NCBI RefSeq assembly: GCF_016918855.1
Contig: NZ_JADKYB010000008.1
Location: 186,001 to 250,000, forward strand
From: Actinacidiphila acididurans
Lineage (GTDB): Bacteria > Actinomycetota > Actinomycetes > Streptomycetales > Streptomycetaceae
Direction of reading: 5' to 3'
DNA length: 64,000 bases
Shown: positions 7,222 to 17,113 of the stretch, in pieces
How positions within the stretch are numbered: the first letter of the stretch is position 1
Layout: each line of letters opens with the position of its first letter
Notes under the pieces: model-generated
Told to the model about the DNA's origin: nothing
The model's database searches: none
The model's input: only the letters and a program-made list of their open reading frames with translations
Translations under genes and position numbers: made by a program

Positions 7222-8070
7222 TCAGTCCGCGAACGCGGCCACGTACGACACCACGCACTGGTCCGGTGTCGCGAGCGAGGTGACGACGTGGCCGTCGACG
7301 GTCACCGGCGGGTCGAGCGGCACTTGGAGCACCCGTTCGGAACGCGAGCCGGCGAGTTGCTCCGCGGGCAGCAGGGTCCAGCCCGCGGGGTCCCGGCCCA
7401 CCTCGAACAGCACGTTGAGCATGTCCCCGGCGGGTGGCCGCAGCGGCGCCACGGGCAGGGCGGCGAGGATCGCGTCGTGCATCGGCGGGTCGGTGTCGCG
7501 GGCGGGGAGCCGTAGGCCGTAGGGGTCGAGGTCGCGCAGGCCGATCGCGGGTCTGCCGGCGGCGGGATGTGCGCGGGACAGCACCGCGTGCAGAGGTTCG
7601 GACCAGGCGTGCACCACGGTCAGCCCCGTGGAGGTGACCGCGCCGCGGACCAGCGCCAGATCCAGCTCGCCGTTGCGGACGGCATCCAGGCGCGCGGTCA
7701 CCGGCAGGTCGACCAGTTCCGGCTCGGCGGGCCGTTCGCTGTCGCGCAGGCGGCTCATCGCGCGGTCGAGCCGCCCGGTGACGCAGGACGCCACCCCGAT
7801 CCGCAGGACGGCCGCTGGTTCCCCGGCGACCACGCGCACCCGGGCCGCCGCGGCGAGCGTCTCACGGGCCGCGGCGAGCACGCGTTCGCCGGCGGGGGTG
7901 AGCCGTACCCGGCGTGAATTGCGGTCGAGCAGGCGCACGCCGAGCTCGCGTTCGAACCGGCTGATCTGCTGGCTCACCGCCGGCTGCACGATGCGCAGCC
8001 GTTCCGCCGCCCGCCCGAAGTGCAGCTCCTCGGCGACGGTCACGAAGTATTGCAGCGTCCTCAGTTCCAC
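7222..8070 (-). CDS. LysR-family regulator
   Basis: 282 aa from a GTG. The N-terminal winged helix is canonical ([50 protein letters not shown]). A type 2 periplasmic-binding effector domain follows. It is divergent from the F420-type reductase at 8261, its probable target. A perfect 15-bp palindrome, ATCACATGATGTGAT, lies 11 bp before its start codon. An AGAAGG immediately abuts the GTG, so spacing is poor for a normal ribosome-binding site. Confidence 0.9.
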
Positions 8071-8081
8071 CCTTCTGATCT

Positions 8082-8096
8082 ATCACATGATGTGAT
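8082..8096. promoter_or_regulatory. Palindromic LysR binding-site candidate
   Basis: ATCACATGATGTGAT is a perfect 7-1-7 inverted repeat fitting the T-N11-A LysR box rule. It lies just upstream of the lysR-type start, where an autoregulatory site is expected. Confidence 0.55.
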
Positions 8097-8186
8097 CGCT
8101 GCCGAGCGCTTGTGCTCATTGTTCGCGCAGGTCACCCGGGCTGTGATGGGTACGAGCGCGCCGCCGCGGGCCCAGCCGCCGGCTGT

Positions 8187-8233
8187 CGTGGCGCGTGGCG
8201 CGTGGCGCCTGGCACATGGGGCGTGGCGCGTGG
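8187..8233. repeat. GTGGCGC short tandem tract before the F420-type reductase gene
   Basis: Five to six imperfect copies of GTGGCGC (CGTGGCGCGTGGCGCGTGG ... GGCGTGGCGCGTGG) sit in the leader 28 bp before the GTG start. It resembles in style, but not exactly in sequence, the CGCACGCC tract before the GH54 gene. Confidence 0.5.
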
Positions 8234-8260
8234 AAACGGGAACGGGAACGGAGAACACAA

Positions 8261-9001
8261 GTGAGCACAACAACGCTCGGCATCATCGGCACCGGAATGG
8301 TCGGCGCCGGGGTCGCCCGCCGTGCTGTCGACGCCGGCCTGGACGTCGTCCTGAGCAACTCGCGCGGCCCGCGGAGTCTGGCCGGTCTCGTCGCCGAGCT
8401 CGGCGAGCGGGCCCGTGCGGCCACCCCGGCCGAAGCGGCGAGCGCCGGTGACCTGGTCCTCGCGTCCGTACCGCTGGTCGCCCACGACCGGCTGCCCCGG
8501 GCCGAGCTGGCCGGAAAGACCGTGATCGACCCGATGAACTACGCGCTGATTCCCGGCTGGAGCTTCCCGGAGCTGGACAGCGACGAGCTGACCTCCAGCG
8601 AACTGGTGCAGCGCCACCTCGCCGGCGCCCGGGTGGTCAAGGCCCTGCACAACATCGGCCCCAAGCAACTGCTGAGCCTCTTCCGCCCGGCCGGAGCCCC
8701 CGACCGCACCGCACTGCCGCTGTCCGGCGACGACCCGGGCGCCAAGAAAGAGGTGGCCGACCTGCTGGACGTCCTCGGCTTCGACACGGTGGACCTCGGC
8801 TCGCTGGCCGACAGTTGGCGCAGTGAACCCAACACCCCGCTGTACGCCCTCCCGTACGTGGGACAGCCGCCGACCGGCCTCGCCCCGACGGACCTGGTGG
8901 CCTGGTTCCAGCAGGCACCCGGCGTGCCCGTGTCCGTCGCCCGGATCAAGGAACTCGCCGCGTCCGCGGTGCGCGGACCCGCGGGCTTCCGGATGCAATA
9001 G
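8261..9001 (+). CDS. NADPH:F420-oxidoreductase-like reductase
   Basis: 246 aa from the GTG at 8261, preceded by GGAG. The N-terminus TTTLGIIGTGMVGAGVARRAVDAGLDVVLSNSRGP is the NADP-binding fold of F420-dependent NADP reductases. Later motifs LVLASVPLVAHDRLP, GKTVIDPMNYALIPG and ARVVKALHNIGPKQL follow the family pattern. Members transfer hydride between NADPH and F420 or act on related substrates. The reading frame extends to 8195, but that part is the repeat tract and is unlikely to be translated. The divergent LysR-type gene is the probable regulator. Confidence 0.85.
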   Translation: MSTTTLGIIGTGMVGAGVARRAVDAGLDVVLSNSRGPRSLAGLVAELGERARAATPAEAASAGDLVLASVPLVAHDRLPRAELAGKTVIDPMNYALIPGWSFPELDSDELTSSELVQRHLAGARVVKALHNIGPKQLLSLFRPAGAPDRTALPLSGDDPGAKKEVADLLDVLGFDTVDLGSLADSWRSEPNTPLYALPYVGQPPTGLAPTDLVAWFQQAPGVPVSVARIKELAASAVRGPAGFRMQ

Positions 9002-9146: not shown

Positions 9147-9161
9147 TGGCAACGATTTTCA
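9147..9161. promoter_or_regulatory. Zur-type box 1
   Basis: TGGCAACGATTTTCA fits the streptomycete Zur consensus as I recall it (about TGAAAATGATTTTCA, 7-1-7 symmetry). Its reverse complement, TGAAAATCGTTGCCA, matches the second site at 13 of 15 positions. It lies 128 bp upstream of the zinc-type binding lipoprotein start. Confidence 0.65.
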
Positions 9162-9185: not shown

Positions 9186-9200
9186 TGAAAGTCGTTTCCA
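9186..9200. promoter_or_regulatory. Zur-type box 2
   Basis: TGAAAGTCGTTTCCA is a second 7-1-7 box in opposite orientation, 39 bp centre to centre from the first and 89 bp before the lipoprotein start. Paired boxes in front of a metal-uptake gene strongly suggest zinc-dependent repression. Confidence 0.65.
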
Positions 9201-9288
9201 TCTAGCGTGAGGAGCCACCCAGCCGTGCCGGTGGGTGCGCCCCCTGATGCGCATACCGACGCGGCCCGATCAAGGAGTTTCCCGCGCC

Positions 9289-10281
9289 ATGAAGGCTGCC
9301 CCCTCCCGCCCGACCGCCCGCCGACCGTTGTGGTCACCCGCCCTCGGCTGCACCGCCGTACTCGCCGCGGCGGCCCTCACCGCATGTTCGACGTCGTCCT
9401 CCTCGGGTTCCACGGCTGACGGCAAGTCCGGCAGCTCGTCGTCCTCCGGCTCCGGGGGCGGGAAGGTCATCCAGGTGGTGGCCGCCGAGAACTTCTGGGG
9501 GAGCATCGCGAGCCAGCTCGGCGGCGGGCACGTCAAGGTGACCAGCATCATCGACAACCCGGACGCCGATCCGCACGACTACGAGCCGACGGCCGCGGAC
9601 GCGCGCACGGTGGCGGGTGCGCAGTACACGATCGTGAACGGGATCGGGTACGACGCGTGGGCCGGCAAGCTGCTGGCGGCCGGCGCGGGGTCGGGCCGTA
9701 CGGACCTGAACGTCGGGGACCTGGTGGGCGTCAAGGCGGGCGGGAACCCGCACCGCTGGTACTCCCCGGCCGACGTGCACGCGGTGATCGAGCGCATCAC
9801 CGCCGACTACAAGAAGCTCGACCCGGCGGACTCCGCGGACTTCGACACGCTGAAGAACACCTTCGAGACGCAGACCCTCGGCTCGTACAACCGGCTGGTC
9901 TCGCAGATCAGGTCGAAGTACGCGGGCACCCCGATCGGCGCCTCGGAGTCCATCGTCAGCCCGCTGGCCGACGGGCTCGGGCTGAAGATGCTCACCCCGT
10001 ACTCGTTCCTGAGCGCGGTCAGCGAGGGCAGCGACCCCACCGCGCGCGACAAGGCGCTGATCGACGGGCAGATCAAGGGCAAGCAGATCAAGGTCTACGT
10101 CTACAACAGCCAGAACGCCACGCCCGATGTGCAGCAGCAGGTGAAGGAGGCGAAGGCGGCGGGCATTCCGGTGGCGACGGTGACCGAGACCCTGACGCCG
10201 GCCGGTGCCTCGTTCCAGGACTGGCAGGTCCGTGAACTGACCGGACTGCAAAAGGCGTTGGCCCAGGCCACCGGGAAGTGA
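9289..10281 (+). CDS. Zinc/manganese-type ABC transporter binding lipoprotein (ZnuA-like)
   Basis: 330 aa from the ATG at 9289, preceded by AAGGAG. The signal peptide ends in the lipobox LTACS, followed by a Ser/Gly linker and a cluster A-I metal-binding fold (VVAAENFWGSIASQLGGGHVKVTSIIDNPDADPHDYEPT). Likely metal ligands are the His in DPHDYEP and the His in NPHRWYSP; GASESIVSPLADGLGLK lies near the second lobe. No permease or ATPase gene adjoins it, so it must use a transporter encoded elsewhere or act as an orphan zinc scavenger. Two Zur-type boxes upstream and a Zur-like gene downstream support zinc starvation control. Confidence 0.85.
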   Translation: MKAAPSRPTARRPLWSPALGCTAVLAAAALTACSTSSSSGSTADGKSGSSSSSGSGGGKVIQVVAAENFWGSIASQLGGGHVKVTSIIDNPDADPHDYEPTAADARTVAGAQYTIVNGIGYDAWAGKLLAAGAGSGRTDLNVGDLVGVKAGGNPHRWYSPADVHAVIERITADYKKLDPADSADFDTLKNTFETQTLGSYNRLVSQIRSKYAGTPIGASESIVSPLADGLGLKMLTPYSFLSAVSEGSDPTARDKALIDGQIKGKQIKVYVYNSQNATPDVQQQVKEAKAAGIPVATVTETLTPAGASFQDWQVRELTGLQKALAQATGK

Positions 10282-10413: not shown

Positions 10414-10866
10414 ATGGCGCCGGACGACCCGAGTGACGAACCGGCCGAGGCGTACGTGATCGGCCGCCGCACGCCGCAGCGCACGACCGTGCTCACCGCC
10501 CTGATCCGCAGCGGGGATTTCGTCAGCGCCCAGGCACTGCACATCCATCTGGCCGCGGCCGGCGAGCGCGTCGGCCTGAGCACGGTCTACCGCACGCTGG
10601 CCGCGCTCGCCGAGGCCGGCCGCGCCGACGTCGTGCGGGAACCCGGCGGCGAACGCCTCTTCCGCTACCGCCCCAGCCGGGAACACCGCCACTACCTGCT
10701 GTGCCGGTCCTGCGGCCAGGGCGTACCCGTCGACGCCGGTCTCGTGGAGGCATGGGCCGCCGCGACAGCGGACTCCTCGGGCTACGCCGAGGTCCACCAC
10801 ACCGTCGAACTGACCGGCGTCTGCCCGGACTGCCTCGCCAAGCGCCGCGCGGAGAAGGAGAAGTGA
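10414..10866 (+). CDS. Fur-family repressor, Zur-like
   Basis: 150 aa from the ATG at 10414 (GGAG nine bases before). The winged helix is QRTTVLTALIRSGDFVSAQALHIHLAAAGERVGLSTVYRTLAALAEAGRADVV. The dimerisation domain carries metal-site signatures EHRHYLLCRSCGQGV and VCPDC, i.e. two CxxC pairs forming a structural zinc site. HHTVELTG matches the Zur/Fur C-terminal strand. With zinc bound it should repress genes carrying 7-1-7 boxes. The neighbouring ZnuA-like gene and boxes point to zinc rather than iron. Its 3' end is two bases from the converging gene. Confidence 0.85.
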   Translation: MAPDDPSDEPAEAYVIGRRTPQRTTVLTALIRSGDFVSAQALHIHLAAAGERVGLSTVYRTLAALAEAGRADVVREPGGERLFRYRPSREHRHYLLCRSCGQGVPVDAGLVEAWAAATADSSGYAEVHHTVELTGVCPDCLAKRRAEKEK

Positions 10867-11588: not shown

Positions 11589-11603
11589 TGAGAACGATTC
11601 TCG
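11589..11603. promoter_or_regulatory. Fur-family (Zur-type) box 3
   Basis: TGAGAACGATTCTCG has 7-1-7 symmetry with one central base and five matching arm pairs. It lies 70 bp before the orphan gene start on the minus strand and faces the PLP operon on the plus strand. Confidence 0.6.
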
Positions 11604-11637
11604 GCTGACAACGCGAGCGGCCGCCCGCCGGTCCAGC

Positions 11638-11652
11638 TGAGAATCATTCTCA
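11638..11652. promoter_or_regulatory. Fur-family (Zur-type) box 4, perfect palindrome
   Basis: TGAGAATCATTCTCA is a perfect 7-1-7 palindrome, extended to 17 bp by one flanking C-G pair on each side. Its centre is 49 bp from the centre of the previous box. Confidence 0.7.
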
Positions 11653-11699
11653 GGTGCCCGCCCCGGGACTCCTTCCGCCTTATTCTCCCGCCGGGCCGG

Positions 11700-11714
11700 T
11701 GAAAGTGATTTCCA
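11700..11714. promoter_or_regulatory. Fur-family (Zur-type) box 5
   Basis: TGAAAGTGATTTCCA matches the box at 9186 at 13 of 15 positions. It is 409 bp upstream of the PLP-operon start codon, so if it regulates that operon the transcript has a long leader. Confidence 0.6.
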
Positions 11715-12122
11715 TGACTGGATGCGGAAGCGGGAGAGTGGGGCACCTGTTCGGTGATCGGCCCGGTGACCGGCTGACAATCGCCAAAGCGAAAACCCCG
11801 CCGATCGCCGTCCCGCGGCGATCGGCGCCGTTGCCCAGGCGCCGGCCGGACCAGGAAAGCGGCAGGTCACACCCGGACGGCCGGACACCGAGAGGCTGCG
11901 TGCATACGCCACGGGCATCGGAACAACCTCGCTGAAACCGGAACTTTCCCGCAGTGAGAGATCTGCCCGGGCCTGCCGGAAAACCGACCCGTGACGCACT
12001 TCCGGGAGGTGTCCCGGGTGTGAAGCGAAACCGCGCGGGGAAACACGTCGTACGGCCCTGCGCGCACAGCGGAGGGCCGTACGCCCGGATTCGGGGCGTA
12101 GCGCTCTGGGGAGGGACCGGGG
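11715..12122 (+). other. Long structured leader of the PLP operon, no gene recognised
   Basis: This 408-bp stretch carries no convincing gene; a 73-codon frame from 11714 is Arg/Pro-rich and looks non-coding. It contains three inverted repeats. GCCGATCGCCG/CGGCGATCGGC is at 11800-11826 (11-bp arms, 5-nt loop), CCGGGA/TCCCGG is near 12002-12017, and CGTACGGCCCT/AGGGCCGTACG is at 12049-12083 (11-bp arms, 13-nt loop, 39 bp before the start codon). Such a leader could attenuate expression or hold a small RNA. No known riboswitch class was recognised. Confidence 0.55.
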
Positions 12123-13595
12123 ATGGGCGAGGAGCCCTTGTATCTGGAGCCGCGGCTCGAAGAGCCGTTGCGCTCACTGCTGGAGTCGCCGGGGTTGCTC
12201 CACACGCTGACAAATGCGCTCGGGTCACCGCTGAACGTGCTTCTTCCCGACCGGATCGCGGCGAATGTGGAGCGATTCCGTTCGGTGTACCGCGCGCATC
12301 ACCTGTCCGGGCAGGTCTGGTTCGCGCACAAGGCCAGCGGATCCAGGGCGCTGCTGCGCAGGCTGGCCGCGACGGACGCCGGAGTGGACGTCGCGTCGCT
12401 GACGGAGCTCCAGCATGCGCTCGGCGCCGGCTTCACGCCGGACCGCATCGTCGCCACCGGACCGAAGAACCCGCCCTTCCTGTGGCTGGCCGCGCGCACG
12501 TCGGTCACCGTCGCCGTCGACAGCCGCGCCGAGCTGGAACACCTCGTCTCGCTGGTACGCGGGCACGCGCTCTCCCGCGCCAGGATCCTGCTGCGGCTGT
12601 CGGGGTTCGAGTCGACGGGCGTACGGGTGCTGAGCCGCCGCAGCCGCTTCGGTTCGCCCGTGGCGAACGTGGGGCCGCTGCTGGACGAGGTCGAACGGTA
12701 CGGCGACGCGGTGGAGTTGGTGGGTGTGGCATACCACCTCGACACGACCGGCCTCGACGAGAAGGCGGTGGCCCTCGAAGGATGCCTGCGGGTGCTGGAG
12801 GAGTGCCGCGGCCGCGGACTGCGGCCCGCCGCGGTGGACGTCGGCGGCGGATTCGGGGTCAGTTACGTCGACGAGCGCGAGCAGTGGGAGCGGTACACGA
12901 CCGCGCTCACCGACGCCGTCCTGGGCACCCGCCCGCCGCTGACCTGGGGCGGACACGGCTACGGACTGCGCAACGAGGGCGGCACGCTGCGCGGCACCCT
13001 CGGGCTCTACCCCGCCCACCGCCCGGTCGCCGGAGCGGGATACCTCGACGAACTCCTCTCGCGCCCGGCGGCCTCCTTCGGCGGGCGCCCGCTGGCCGCC
13101 CTGCTGCTGGAACACCTCTACGACCTGCACGCCGAACCCGGCCGGGCGCTGGTGGACCAGTGCGGGGTGACCGTGGCGAAGGTGCTGGAAGTACGCGCCG
13201 ACGACGCGGGTGCGCAGCTCCTGGTGCGGCTGGCGGCGAAGGCCGACGACGTGGCCCTGGAGGACCACGGGGTGCTCGTGGACCCGGTCGTCGTGCCGCG
13301 CGATCCGGCGGGCGGGCGCGCCGGCGACGGGCCGGTCGCGGTCCATCTGGCCGGCAGCCTGTGTCTGGAGACCGACCTGATCACCCGCAGGACGGTCTTC
13401 CTGCCGCGCCGCCCCGAGCCGGGCGACCTGCTGGCCTTCGCGAACACCGCGGGCTACTGCATGGACTTCCGGGCCACCCGCGCCCAGCAACAGCCCGCCG
13501 CACGCAAGGTCGCCGCCTGGCAGGAGGGCGGCTCGTGGCAATGGTGTCTGGACGACGAGTACTGGCCGACCGTACCCGTGGGGGGAACGCAGTGA
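12123..13595 (+). CDS. Fold-III PLP decarboxylase-like enzyme (Y4yA-like)
   Basis: 490 aa, GGAGGG six bases before the ATG. The domain is that of diaminopimelate/ornithine decarboxylases: PLP lysine K70 in WFAHKASGSRALLRRLA, the ATGPKN strand, Gly-rich phosphate-binding DVGGGFGVSYV, and a C-terminal beta-domain with SLCLETDLITRR, resembling the active-site Cys-Glu-x-Asp region. It resembles the Y4yA group known from rhizobial symbiotic plasmids, whose reaction is, to my knowledge, not established. It probably decarboxylates an amino acid or a condensed intermediate in the four-gene pathway. It overlaps the next gene by GTGA, showing translational coupling. Confidence 0.85.
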   Translation: MGEEPLYLEPRLEEPLRSLLESPGLLHTLTNALGSPLNVLLPDRIAANVERFRSVYRAHHLSGQVWFAHKASGSRALLRRLAATDAGVDVASLTELQHALGAGFTPDRIVATGPKNPPFLWLAARTSVTVAVDSRAELEHLVSLVRGHALSRARILLRLSGFESTGVRVLSRRSRFGSPVANVGPLLDEVERYGDAVELVGVAYHLDTTGLDEKAVALEGCLRVLEECRGRGLRPAAVDVGGGFGVSYVDEREQWERYTTALTDAVLGTRPPLTWGGHGYGLRNEGGTLRGTLGLYPAHRPVAGAGYLDELLSRPAASFGGRPLAALLLEHLYDLHAEPGRALVDQCGVTVAKVLEVRADDAGAQLLVRLAAKADDVALEDHGVLVDPVVVPRDPAGGRAGDGPVAVHLAGSLCLETDLITRRTVFLPRRPEPGDLLAFANTAGYCMDFRATRAQQQPAARKVAAWQEGGSWQWCLDDEYWPTVPVGGTQ

Positions 13596-14911
13596 GATAC
13601 GACAGCATCACCGAGGCCATCGGCAACACCCCGCTGGTGCGCATCGACCCGGCCGTGCACGGCCTGGAACACATCGACCTCTACGCCAAGCTGGAGCTGT
13701 TCAACCCGTTCGGATCGGTGAAGGACCGGGCGGCCTGGAACATGGCGCGCCCGCACCTGGCGGCCGCGGTCGAGCACGGCAGCACGGTCGTCGAACTGTC
13801 CAGCGGCAACACCGCCAAGGCGCTGGCCGTCCTCGCCGGCATGCACGGCCTGCGGTTCAAGAGCGTCACCAACCGGATGCGGGTCCCCGAGATCAAGGAC
13901 CTCCTGCTGCTGCTCGGCGCCGAGATCGAGGAACTGCCCGGACAGAGCGAGTGCCTCGACCCGGCCGCGACCGACGACCCGCTGACCCTCTTCCACCGCA
14001 CCCTGTCCGAGCCGGGAGGCGACTACCTGCACACCGACCAGTACTTCAACCCGCACAACGTCGAGGCCCACCTCACCGGCACGGGCCCGGAGATCGTGAA
14101 GGACCTGGACGGCCGGGCACCGGACTGGTTCGTGGCCGGCGTGGGCACCGCCGGATCGTCCACCGGCATCGCCCGCGCGCTGCGCGAAACCGACCCTGCC
14201 GTACGGGTCCTGGGGCTGGTCGCCGCCAAGTCCGACTTCATCCCCGGCATCCGCACCATCGACGAGGTGCACGAGGTGGGCCTGTTCGACCCCGGCACCT
14301 ATGACGCGATCGAGGCCGTCAGCGCCGACGAGGCGATCGAGGGGATGCTGACCCTCAACCGCCGGTGCGGCATCCTGGCCGGCCCCACCGGAGGAGCGGC
14401 CTACCAGGGTGCCGTGCGCCGGCTGGGGGCCCTCGACGCGGAACTGACCGAACGCCAGTCGGCGGTGTTCGTCGTCTGCGACCGTGTCGAGAGCTACATC
14501 GGCTACGTCCGGGAGCGCCGCCCGGACCTGTTCGGCCGGCCCCCGCGCCGGAACTCCCCGGCCGACCTGTCCGACGCCGAGGTACGCGCGGCCCCCGCCA
14601 TCGGGGTCGCCGACGCCCAGGCGTGGATCGCCACCGGCCGGCCGCTCGTCGTCGACCTGCGCAGCACCTTCGCGTACGCCGCCCTGCACATCGACGGATC
14701 GGTCAACATCGTCGACGAGGTCTTCGAGGAACTCCTGCGCGGCGGCCTGCCCTTCAGCCGCAGCCGCCCGGTGCTGCTGGCCTGCCCGGTGGGCGAGAAG
14801 TCGGCCCGCTACGCGGCGCTGCTCACCCGGATGGGACACCCGGAGGTCCGCAGCCTCACCGGCGGCATCGTCGCCTGGCGCGACGCGGGCGCCCCGCTGG
14901 TACGGGACTGA
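13592..14911 (+). CDS. Cysteine-synthase-like PLP enzyme fused to a rhodanese domain
   Basis: 439 aa from the GTG at 13592. Residues 1-315 are a fold-II PLP enzyme (AIGNTPLVRI, PLP lysine K44 in NPFGSVKDRAAWN, SSGNTAKALAVLAG, phosphate loop GTAGSSTGIARAL, GILAGPTGGAAYQGA). This is the group that performs beta-replacement, as in cysteine synthase or SbnA of staphyloferrin B synthesis. Residues 335-439 are a rhodanese (RPLVVDLRSTFAYAALHIDGSVNI) with catalytic loop CPVGEKS, Cys398 intact. The fusion suggests persulfide sulfur delivery to, or turnover by, the PLP centre. It is coupled to both neighbours, with short spacing to the SufS-like gene. Confidence 0.88.
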   Translation: MRYDSITEAIGNTPLVRIDPAVHGLEHIDLYAKLELFNPFGSVKDRAAWNMARPHLAAAVEHGSTVVELSSGNTAKALAVLAGMHGLRFKSVTNRMRVPEIKDLLLLLGAEIEELPGQSECLDPAATDDPLTLFHRTLSEPGGDYLHTDQYFNPHNVEAHLTGTGPEIVKDLDGRAPDWFVAGVGTAGSSTGIARALRETDPAVRVLGLVAAKSDFIPGIRTIDEVHEVGLFDPGTYDAIEAVSADEAIEGMLTLNRRCGILAGPTGGAAYQGAVRRLGALDAELTERQSAVFVVCDRVESYIGYVRERRPDLFGRPPRRNSPADLSDAEVRAAPAIGVADAQAWIATGRPLVVDLRSTFAYAALHIDGSVNIVDEVFEELLRGGLPFSRSRPVLLACPVGEKSARYAALLTRMGHPEVRSLTGGIVAWRDAGAPLVRD

Positions 14912-14972
14912 ACCCGTTGTGCAGTGACCCGGAGTGACCCAAGTGACATGCACCGACCTGGAGTTGACCGCC

Positions 14973-16247
14973 ATGACCGTACCCGGGACGCACGACGGCC
15001 CGCTCACCGACGAACCGTACGCCCTGGACCAACCGAACGACCCGCACGCCTTGGACAGCCTGCGCGCATGGCAGCGCGCCCTGCGCGACCAGTTCCCGAT
15101 CATCACCGGCAACCCGGACCTCGCCTACCTGGACAACGCCGCCACGGCCCAGAAACCGCGGGCCGTCCTCGACGCCGTGCACACCTACCTCACCACGACC
15201 AACGCCAACGCCGGCCGCGGCACCTACCCGTGGGCCAACCGGACCACACAGGCCGTCGAAGGCGCCCGCGACCGGGTCCGGCGATTCCTGAACGACCCGG
15301 ACCCGGGAACGTCGGCCGTGCACTTCACCAGCGGCACCACCGAGGGGCTGCGCGCCATCGCCCTCGACTGGCTGCCCCGCTTCCTGCGGGACGGCGACGA
15401 GATCATCGTCCCCTTCGCCGACCACGAGGCCAACATCTCGCCCTGGCGGGAGGCCGAACGGCTGCTCGCCGACCGGGGCGTGCACATCCGCGTCCTGCCG
15501 ATGCCGTACCAGGCGAGCTCCGGCGACTACGACCACATCGCGCTGGCGGACCTGGCCGGACCCCGTACCCGGTTCGTGGCCGTCACCCACGTCCACCACG
15601 TCTACGGCGGCGACATGAACGTCCACCGGGTCCGCCGGGCCGTCGGCCCCGACGCGGTCATCTGCCTGGACGCCGCCCAGAGCATCGGGCACCTGCCGGT
15701 TTCGCTCGCCGGAGGCGGCGAACTGCCCCGGGCCGACGTCGACTTCGTGGTCTTCTCCGGCCACAAGGCGATGGCCCTGCCCGGGACGGGGGCGGTCTGG
15801 GCCCGCCAGGCGCGCGGACCGGCGTTCGTCCCGGGCGGCTGGTCGGGGACCCCCAACACCGTCGGCATCGTCTCGCTGGCCGCGGCGCTGGACTGGCTCG
15901 ACGCCGCCGGTGTCGAGCGGATCGAGCGCTGGACCGTCGCCCTGGCGGCCCGGTTCACCGACGCGCTGCGGCACCTGGCGGCGTACGAGATCCTCGGCTG
16001 CCGGACCAGCCTGGCCGCCGACTCGCCCGTCCAGCGGCGCAAGGGCGTGGTGACCTTCCGGCATCACGGCATCCCCTCCGGCGACCTGGGGTTCATCCTG
16101 TTCAGCCACGGCTTCATGGTCCGCTCCGACAACCACTGCCAGGGCAGCGCGGGGGAGAGCGCCGGCTCGGTACGGGTGAGCCTGCACGTCCACAACACCG
16201 TGGAGGAGGTCGACCGGCTGCTGTCCGTCCTTGCCTCGCTCGGGTGA
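14973..16247 (+). CDS. Class V aminotransferase / SufS-like cysteine desulfurase
   Basis: 424 aa from the ATG at 14973, with GGAG nine bases before; an in-frame GTG at 14934 is the alternative. The fold-I signature is clear: AYLDNAATAQKPRAVLDAV, HFTSGTTEGLRAIA, DHEANISPWR, VTHVHHVYGGDMNV, LDAAQSIGHLPV and PLP lysine K265 in FSGHKAMALPGTG. The catalytic Cys position of SufS is retained as C389, but its context is RSDNHC in place of the usual R.GHHC. It may take sulfur from cysteine or a cysteinyl intermediate, feeding the upstream rhodanese. A housekeeping Fe-S role is less likely, since no suf genes adjoin. Confidence 0.85.
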   Translation: MTVPGTHDGPLTDEPYALDQPNDPHALDSLRAWQRALRDQFPIITGNPDLAYLDNAATAQKPRAVLDAVHTYLTTTNANAGRGTYPWANRTTQAVEGARDRVRRFLNDPDPGTSAVHFTSGTTEGLRAIALDWLPRFLRDGDEIIVPFADHEANISPWREAERLLADRGVHIRVLPMPYQASSGDYDHIALADLAGPRTRFVAVTHVHHVYGGDMNVHRVRRAVGPDAVICLDAAQSIGHLPVSLAGGGELPRADVDFVVFSGHKAMALPGTGAVWARQARGPAFVPGGWSGTPNTVGIVSLAAALDWLDAAGVERIERWTVALAARFTDALRHLAAYEILGCRTSLAADSPVQRRKGVVTFRHHGIPSGDLGFILFSHGFMVRSDNHCQGSAGESAGSVRVSLHVHNTVEEVDRLLSVLASLG

Positions 16248-16278
16248 TCCGGCACCCCTCGGAACCCACAATGCGGAA

Positions 16279-16293
16279 TGGAAACCGTTTCCA
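16279..16293. promoter_or_regulatory. Fur-family (Zur-type) box 6 before the methyltransferase gene
   Basis: TGGAAACCGTTTCCA is a perfect 7-1-7 palindrome, 58 bp before the methyltransferase start. The odd-length centre favours a Fur-family protein over a LacI-type one, whose sites have an even CG centre. Confidence 0.65.
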
Positions 16294-16351
16294 CCTGTAG
16301 AGTCCGATCGACAGACCGGACAGATGCGAGACGGCAAGGTGGTACGACCCG

Positions 16352-17113
16352 ATGGGGCTGAGCCTGGCAACGGCCGAGCGATGGGTGCAGCGCTGGGAAC
16401 ACCAGCAGCAGCGGTACGCGGTGGACCGCGAGGACCGGTTCACCGTGATCGCCGATGTCGTCGAGCACGTCACCGCGAACCGGGCGCACCCGCTGCTGGT
16501 CGCCGACTTGGGTTGCGGCCCCGGATCGCTCGCGGCCCGGCTGGCCGGGCGGCTGCGCACCGCGGACATCGTGGCCGTCGACCGGGACCCGCTGCTGCTG
16601 GCCCTGGCCCGCACCCGTCACGCGGACGCGGCCCGGTACGTCGACGCGGTGATCGGCGAGCCGGGCTGGACCGGGGCGCTCGGCCTGGACCGGCCGCTGG
16701 ACGCGGTGGTGTCGACGACCGCGCTGCACTACCTGAGCCTGGACGCCCTGCGCCGCACCTACAGCGAGCTGGCAGCCCTCCTGCGGCCCGGCGGTGTCCT
16801 CGTCAACGGCGACCACCTGCCGCCGGACGACCCCGCGCTCGCCGAGTTCACCGGCCGTGTCGGCCACCGCCGGGCCGAGCGGCTGCACGCGTACGACCCG
16901 GAGGACTGGGCCTCCTGGTGGACGGCCGTCGCCGAGGAACCCGAACTGGCCGACGCCCTCGCCGAACGCCGCCGCCGTCCCCCGGCCGGCACCGGAAGCG
17001 CCGCCCGCCTGTCCCTGTCCGGGCACGTACGGCTGCTGCGTCAGGCGGGGTTCGCGCACGCCGGTCCGGTCTGGCAGTGCGGCGACAGCCACGTGGTCGT
17101 GGCGATCCGCTGA
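16352..17113 (+). CDS. Class I SAM-dependent methyltransferase
   Basis: 253 aa. SAM-binding motif I reads LLVADLGCGPGSLAARLAG, the acidic end of strand 2 is IVAVDRDPL, motif IV is DAVVSTTALHYLS, and LLRPGGVLVNGDHL follows. These are hallmarks of a Rossmann-fold methyltransferase of the Methyltransf_25/12 type. It probably N-, O- or S-methylates the pathway product in the cytoplasm. It lies 104 bp after the SufS-like gene, with its own palindromic box between, so it may be expressed separately as well as from the operon. The substrate is unknown. Confidence 0.85.
   Translation: MGLSLATAERWVQRWEHQQQRYAVDREDRFTVIADVVEHVTANRAHPLLVADLGCGPGSLAARLAGRLRTADIVAVDRDPLLLALARTRHADAARYVDAVIGEPGWTGALGLDRPLDAVVSTTALHYLSLDALRRTYSELAALLRPGGVLVNGDHLPPDDPALAEFTGRVGHRRAERLHAYDPEDWASWWTAVAEEPELADALAERRRRPPAGTGSAARLSLSGHVRLLRQAGFAHAGPVWQCGDSHVVVAIR

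Follow-up and report, generated by a model that had tools for sequence, protein, structure and literature searches.

Analysis of a 64,000-nt stretch of the Actinacidiphila acididurans genome (contig NZ_JADKYB010000008.1, positions 186,001 to 250,000; hereafter the window) led us to an operon of four genes. On balance, with slightly more confidence than doubt, we read these genes as encoding the core enzymes of a zinc-starvation pathway whose product would be a small amino-acid-derived, probably sulfur-bearing metal ligand; in the fullest form of the pathway, this ligand would be an exported and re-imported zincophore. To judge from the genes, the pathway is most likely unlike those for coelibactin, the opine-like zincophores and staphyloferrin B. 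The host genome comprises 9.69 Mb, and the window lies on its contig C58 (C and L numbers are our designations for contigs and loci). The four genes are:

12123-13595, plus strand: gene 1, a Y4yA-like fold-III pyridoxal phosphate (PLP) enzyme, likely a decarboxylase (Pfam Orn_Arg_deC_N)
13592-14911, plus strand: gene 2, a CysM-like PLP domain fused to a rhodanese domain (Pfam PALP, Rhodanese)
14934-16247, plus strand: gene 3, a SufS-like class V PLP enzyme, start codon uncertain (Pfam Aminotran_5)
16352-17113, plus strand: gene 4, a class I S-adenosylmethionine-dependent methyltransferase (MTase; Pfam Methyltransf_25)

A preliminary description of this DNA had placed four open reading frames of these families at these positions, and Pfam, NCBIfam and the open reading frames themselves bear this out. 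It had also described the genes as coupled by GTGA overlap, which holds for genes 1 and 2 and not for the other joints. The GTG taken as the uncertain start of gene 3 (14934) lies 22 nt past the end of gene 2, and gene 4, which has its own regulatory box and a −10-like TAGAGT, follows gene 3 after a gap of 104 nt. The top NCBIfam models for all four proteins score under their curated cut-offs. Gene 1 aligns over most of its length with Y4yA of Sinorhizobium fredii NGR234 (31% identity, 458 aligned columns, 148 bits), and no curated Y4yA model appears among its NCBIfam matches. Gene 2 scores 165-170 bits against CysM/CysKM models (best 170.1, missing the cut-off of 344.15; no CysK, CysM or CysKM cut-off is reached), and gene 3 scores 237 bits against the SufS model TIGR01979 (cut-off 475.1, likewise missed).

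Comparison across genomes supports the view that the four genes form a conserved, co-inherited module. Strong homologs of gene 1 (E up to 1e-60) occur in 89 of 394 family genomes, our own included; within the genus, 4 of 35 genomes have a match at E 1e-177 or better, and named relatives carrying the same genes belong to Streptomyces, Kitasatospora and Streptantibioticus. We assembled a first set of 42 loci, made up of 40 genome loci hand-picked for variety from the 88 other gene 1 matches, a plasmid locus (L035) and the window; L034 duplicates L086 and was left out. A second, named set consists of the best 80 of 524 confirmed loci. Sixteen of these repeat the first set (L154 and L160, for instance, repeat L072 and L073), and they were removed from the box counts of the named set and kept in its neighborhood counts. 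Neighboring genes were named by Pfam in the examples and by similarity grouping in the remainder. Translated searches found the four genes together in 42/42 neighborhoods of the first set, with the MTase within ~8 kb, a co-occurrence that the preliminary description had suggested looking for. Genes 1-3 are consecutive in the 42 neighborhoods, although as called they are not strictly adjacent in L066, where gene 2 is split, and in L074. The MTase gene directly follows them in most cases, lies ~1 kb upstream in L085, L090 and L097, and comes after extra genes in L081, L091 and L098. Among the best 80 of 524 loci, gene 2 and gene 3 each accompany gene 1 in 79, and 77 show an MTase match. Distances between orthologs, taken pair by pair, are correlated among the four proteins (r 0.76-0.82), as is expected of a unit but equally of plain vertical descent. 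In a sample reaching beyond the family, gene 2 was matched at E 1e-90 in 5 of 396 phylum-wide genomes, three of the five being in the family.

The residues on which catalysis would depend are also conserved. In gene 1, K70, an EPGR motif and C414-L-E-x-D418 are invariant among 15 aligned sequences, and the PLP lysines of gene 2 (K44) and gene 3 (K278) are invariant in aligned sets of 15-16. The rhodanese cysteine of gene 2 (CPVG) and loop Cys402 of gene 3 are each kept in 41/41 full-length orthologs, counts that exclude L066 for gene 2 and L084 for gene 3, both cut short. With K278 and C402, gene 3 has the residues predicted for a cysteine desulfurase by mechanism, and its invariant cysteine, taken with that of the rhodanese, suggests that sulfur is relayed between the two. 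The AlphaFold model of gene 2 is of poor quality (mean pLDDT 61.2). Copies interrupted by a stop or frame break occur in L211 (gene 1), L066 (gene 2) and L084 (gene 3), through decay or assembly errors.

The link to zinc begins with short 7-1-7 palindromic boxes in the window, which the preliminary description had located before gene 4, in the leader region of the operon and before a ZnuA-like gene with a Zur-like gene nearby, and which are present at those places:

16279-16293, unstranded: Zur-type box TGGAAACCGTTTCCA before gene 4 (exact pattern; matrix score 24.8; conserved in orthologs)
16298-16303: −10-like TAGAGT after the gene 4 box
11589-11603, unstranded: Zur-type box between P0007 and gene 1 (matrix 17.1)
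11638-11652, unstranded: Zur-type box between P0007 and gene 1 (matrix 23.6)
11700-11714, unstranded: Zur-type box between P0007 and gene 1 (matrix 25.5)
9147-9161, unstranded: Zur-type box before znuA (exact pattern)
9186-9200, unstranded: second Zur-type box before znuA (pattern scan)
9235-10281, plus strand: ZnuA-like lipoprotein gene (Pfam ZnuA; the ATG at 9289 is the likelier start)
10414-10866, plus strand: Zur-like regulator (Pfam FUR)

To score such sites we used a matrix built from 20 boxes at ribosomal-paralog, ZnuA, Zur and CobW genes and at own-genome sites, with the operon boxes excluded. The control was 489 upstream regions, and the threshold was set at the 95% control level (8.75) because Zur targets unlisted in the control inflate the 99% level (23.2). 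In the first set, boxes above the threshold precede 40/42 MTase genes, 14/41 first genes, 1/42 second genes and 1/42 third genes (L074 gave no gene 1 call); at the 99% level these become 9/42 MTase genes and 1/41 first genes. The further named loci show the same distribution, with boxes at 59/61 MTase genes and 8/62 first genes. Pooling both sets, the MTase gene carries a box in 99/103 loci, and a box lies within 300 nt of gene 1 in 22/103. A TAnnnT sequence occurs at most 14 nt downstream of the MTase box in 26/40 first-set loci, compared with 0.4% at random places, and in 52/59 named loci (counted from rows). Zur control of gene 4 is thus well predicted, and the boxes are conserved upstream in orthologous loci, at the MTase; the preliminary description had named a lack of such conservation as a refutation. 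Among the exceptions are L098 and L203, in which the MTase ends a longer gene run. Strong boxes do precede gene 1 in some loci, including L083, L098, L159 and L180, and Zur control of the whole gene set is likely, by this prediction, in some species.

Several observations in the host genome identify the boxes, at the level of sequence, as Zur-type. The window pattern fits the motif tGaNNatSatNNtCa given for Streptomyces coelicolor Zur in the cited text (PMC5472717). An exact search for TGRNAAYNRTTNYCA gives three genomic sites, all within the window, and none for its reversed-pattern control; allowing up to one mismatch gives 35 places versus 12 for the control. Within the window alone, nine sites with up to two mismatches compare with 3.19 expected, and 1 of 100 shuffles scored as high, a modest excess. 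We inspected six genomic regions with further box sites. On contig C14, twin boxes 40 nt apart, resembling the window's znuA pair (39 nt apart), precede znuCB-type genes that encode an ATP-binding cassette (ABC) ATPase and a pair of permeases (znuCBB), and on C56 a box stands ahead of L33 and L31 paralog genes; given these two sites, we rejected the possibility that the boxes are noise. On C26 (L215), a box at 7956 identical to one of the znuA boxes lies directly before a MinD/CbiA-type ATPase gene (8002-8976), possibly another Zur target. Genes without evident zinc link adjoin the boxes in the other three regions. The Zur-like regulator of the window has 3mwm and 7vo0 as its top solved-structure matches, the former of which we take to be S. 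coelicolor Zur. A second Zur-like gene, 47% identical, is found on C19 beside glycyl-tRNA-synthetase-like and uppS-like genes (labels assigned by eye), with no znuABC in the stretch read around it. The ZnuA-like protein of the window has no other match in the host genome. Zinc uptake genes are scattered: C19 carries a canonical-looking zur, C14 has znuCBB preceded by twin boxes, and the window contains znuA, also with twin boxes, plus a second zur.

Genes neighboring the module in a few other species would fit a secreted ligand. Zinc-starvation markers (ribosomal paralogs, CobW, Zur, ZnuA or a histidine-rich protein; examples checked by Pfam) accompany it in 16/42 first-set neighborhoods and in 29 of the best 80 of 524 loci, 16 loci being common to both sets; this frequency appears to exceed chance. 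Genes for an Opp-type ABC importer adjoin the operon in L071-L073, in L098 and in 10 of the best 80 of 524 loci. The most complete arrangement is that of Streptomyces bikiniensis NRRL B-1049 (L203), where 11 genes with small gaps or overlaps form a run on one strand in the order substrate-binding protein (SBP), OppB, OppC, OppDF, Y4yA, CysM-rhodanese, SufS-like, ATP-grasp 1, ATP-grasp 2, major facilitator superfamily (MFS) transporter and MTase. A box (20.2) located 40 nt before the SBP gene as called heads the whole run, which is adjoined by CobW and L32-like genes. L098 shares this gene order; there znuC- and znuB-like genes precede the run, and a box stands in front of the Y4yA gene. Both ATP-grasp genes and the MFS gene are present in L091, and one ATP-grasp gene and the MFS gene in L081. 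ATP-grasp 1 passes only PRK07206, an uncharacterized subfamily model; its best function-named NCBIfam model is dapdiamide synthase DdaF, at 209 bits against a cut-off of 840.

Two other genes recur near the module. One encodes a histidine-rich protein of ~75-108 residues with HGDxCGH-like repeats and no Pfam or NCBIfam match (L070-L073, L081, L083, L088, L095 and L035); it often lies right after the MTase gene and had no box directly before it in 9/9 cases scored. The other, an ArsR-family gene that often adjoins it, has a box ~32-38 nt upstream in 4/4.

The chemistry we propose follows from the enzyme families and from invariant residues that fit a relay. The SufS-like enzyme would take sulfur from cysteine and pass it to the rhodanese cysteine, and the CysM-like domain would attach sulfur, or a different nucleophile, to the beta carbon of an activated serine. 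An intermediate may then be decarboxylated by the Y4yA-like enzyme, and the methyltransferase, switched on when zinc leaves Zur, would perform a late step. Where present, the ATP-grasp enzymes could couple the resulting unit to other amino acids. In the host of the window, the product may remain inside the cell or use transporters encoded elsewhere. A divergent form of the triad of genes 1-3 in three genomes of a third family (L212, L213 and L248) comprises a SufS-like protein, a ~430-residue protein, a Y4yA-like protein and a CysM-rhodanese; in L212 the ~430-residue protein has a C-terminal heavy-metal-associated (HMA) domain similar to copper chaperones. It is possible, and we suggest it only tentatively, that these genes define a new metallophore class. 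In such a pathway a CysM-like enzyme would build an amino acid, a desulfurase-rhodanese relay would supply it with sulfur from cysteine, and a fold-III decarboxylase would trim it. The triad would be reused among actinomycetes for different metals: with Zur and the MTase for zinc (in S. bikiniensis joined by ligases, an MFS exporter and an Opp importer), and in the other family with the copper-chaperone-like HMA protein.

The preliminary description had proposed a possible zinc metallophore or zinc-sparing metabolite. The metallophore idea is better founded than at the outset because transporter-bearing relatives were found: import, ligase and export genes accompany the set in a few species, and zinc-starvation genes are among its neighbors. 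A number of observations nevertheless weigh against it. At most loci, the window included, only the four genes are present, and the operon of the window has no transporter gene. Ligases and an exporter occur in just 3/42 neighborhoods plus L203, and the host genome lacks a close match to ATP-grasp 1 (best 35%). The SBP genes of the Opp importers in L071-L073 have no box (best scores −1.5, 1.8 and −1.1). Two genomes of another family (L246 and L247) carry the triad with no MTase match nearby, and in 81/103 loci, again including the window, there is no box within 300 nt of gene 1. We also considered that the host keeps the ATP-grasp/MFS half elsewhere; the best ATP-grasp 1 match, on C24, belongs to a gene set in which no Zur-type box exceeds the scan level of 13, and we rejected this candidate.

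The scarcity of transporters could mean instead that the genes serve intracellular zinc-sparing or sulfur metabolism, generating an internal thiol or persulfide that stands in for zinc-dependent thiol chemistry or buffers zinc, with no secreted ligand. We regard this as rather unlikely. The conserved sulfur-relay residues would suit it, as would the known Zur response, which largely replaces zinc-dependent parts and whose ribosomal paralogs neighbor the operon here. It fits poorly with the importer, ligase and exporter genes of L203 and L098 and with the Opp genes found beside other copies, and a patchy distribution in the family is unlike that of a core metabolic replacement.

Another explanation, which we hold to be unlikely, is that control is split, so that the MTase alone answers to Zur, the triad is expressed independently from another promoter and the zinc pathway amounts to its last step. 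The concentration of boxes at the MTase gene rather than at gene 1 is what this predicts, and many first genes have a candidate promoter of a different kind. GGNRTAAA occurs within 200 nt of gene 1 in 17/41 loci versus 2/557 control genes, and its strict form is found once per genome, at the gene 1 promoter, in 6/7 genomes. The promoter-like element, GGGCGTAAA, lies ~30-175 nt before gene 1 (L065, L067-L072, L075, L076, L079, L083 and others), with a GGAAA/TATACGG-like block some 15-25 nt after it. Gene 1 of the window has neither a box within 300 nt nor the GGNRTAAA element within 200 nt. The three leader boxes on which whole-operon control had originally been predicated occupy the 603-nt gap between gene 1 and a divergent gene, P0007, at 423-534 nt from the gene 1 start and roughly 70-180 nt from that of P0007:

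10869-11519, minus strand: P0007, divergent gene, alternative target of the three boxes (no Pfam or NCBIfam match)
11799-11827, unstranded: perfect 13-bp inverted repeat between the boxes and gene 1 (predicted stem)

Because the box is conserved at the MTase gene, and the window boxes are far from gene 1 and nearer P0007, Zur control is well predicted for the MTase and may or may not extend to genes 1-3 of the window; the claim of a Zur-controlled operon is supported for gene 4, and control of the whole through the leader boxes is not supported. Homologs of P0007 were found in 11 other genomes among 200 sampled. The nearest (57% identity) lies ~9 kb from that genome's operon with a box-like site (17.8) 100 nt upstream; among the ten others, none of the nine scored has a passing box, and L262 is at a contig end. 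The inverted repeat is possibly a terminator or attenuator, and the region taken whole folds no better than chance (17/200 shuffles as good). A scan of the leader for sigma-70-type promoters gave 0 sites, and an Rfam scan 0 matches. Split control as a general explanation is opposed by the strong boxes before gene 1 in L083, L098, L159 and L180 and by the box that heads the entire run in L203.

A zinc-timed specialized metabolite that does not act through zinc binding, such as an amino-acid-derived antibiotic, would accord with the patchy distribution and with DdaF being the nearest function-named model, under cut-off, for ATP-grasp 1, but is very doubtful, since in several species an importer and zinc-uptake genes adjoin the set.

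Only a small number of zincophore pathways have been described. If the zinc-ligand reading is correct, a common and unstudied gene set, present in 89 of the 394 family genomes sampled, would represent a new pathway, using sulfur chemistry, for responding to zinc shortage or acquiring zinc. Cluster rules based on nonribosomal peptide synthetases (NRPSs), NRPS-independent siderophore (NIS) synthetases or opine enzymes would presumably not pick it up. Our searches of openly licensed PMC papers showed none on this gene set; Y4yA is named in four papers. A practical place to look for the compound is S. bikiniensis, whose importer and exporter genes share a single run under a Zur-type box.

Among known systems, the opine-like zincophores (staphylopine, pseudopaline, bacillopaline and yersinopine) resemble L203 and L098 in their zinc link, MFS export and Opp-type import, a combination that the cited portion of the literature gives as one of two main layouts of their clusters (PMC7438024). 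We scanned the four genes and the L203 run with Pfam, with the ATP-grasp and MFS proteins scanned in their L091 orthologs. Neither the window operon nor the L203 run has a nicotianamine-synthase-like or opine-dehydrogenase-like gene, and membership was dismissed since these characteristic enzymes are missing. Coelibactin of S. coelicolor, described in the cited sections as a Zur-controlled predicted zincophore and nonribosomal peptide (PMC5472717, PMC6103462), shares Zur control in a streptomycete and differs in that none of our four genes is an NRPS. The [S,S]-EDDS of Amycolatopsis japonicum, by the cited account a zinc- and Zur-controlled amino-acid-derived ligand (PMC9252823), is comparable in control and ligand type, and we claim no gene relation. 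The pairing of SufS-type desulfurases with rhodanese acceptors is echoed in gene 3, which keeps the class V fold, the PLP lysine and the loop cysteine, and in the rhodanese cysteine of gene 2; unlike SufS, gene 3 has SDxHCQ-type loops and misses the SufS cut-off, and the acceptor here is fused to a CysM-like domain.

In the staphyloferrin B pathway (sbn), a Y4yA-family gene stands beside a cysteine-synthase-family gene. The analogy with SbnA and staphyloferrin B drawn in the preliminary description is weak: gene 2 scores 141.6 bits against the SbnA model TIGR03945, under its cut-off of 349.95, and Pfam identifies neither an SbnB-type dehydrogenase nor an NIS synthetase among the four genes, so we rejected membership in that group. 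The Y4yA cluster of S. fredii NGR234 likewise has a Y4yA-family gene adjoining a cysteine-synthase-family gene (31% and 35% identical to genes 1 and 2, respectively), together with an MFS gene. It includes ParB-like, octopine/nopaline-dehydrogenase-family and IucA/IucC genes, whereas here there are the rhodanese fusion, the SufS-like enzyme and the MTase instead. Its composition therefore provides a precedent for genes 1 and 2 standing together with genes for metal ligands.

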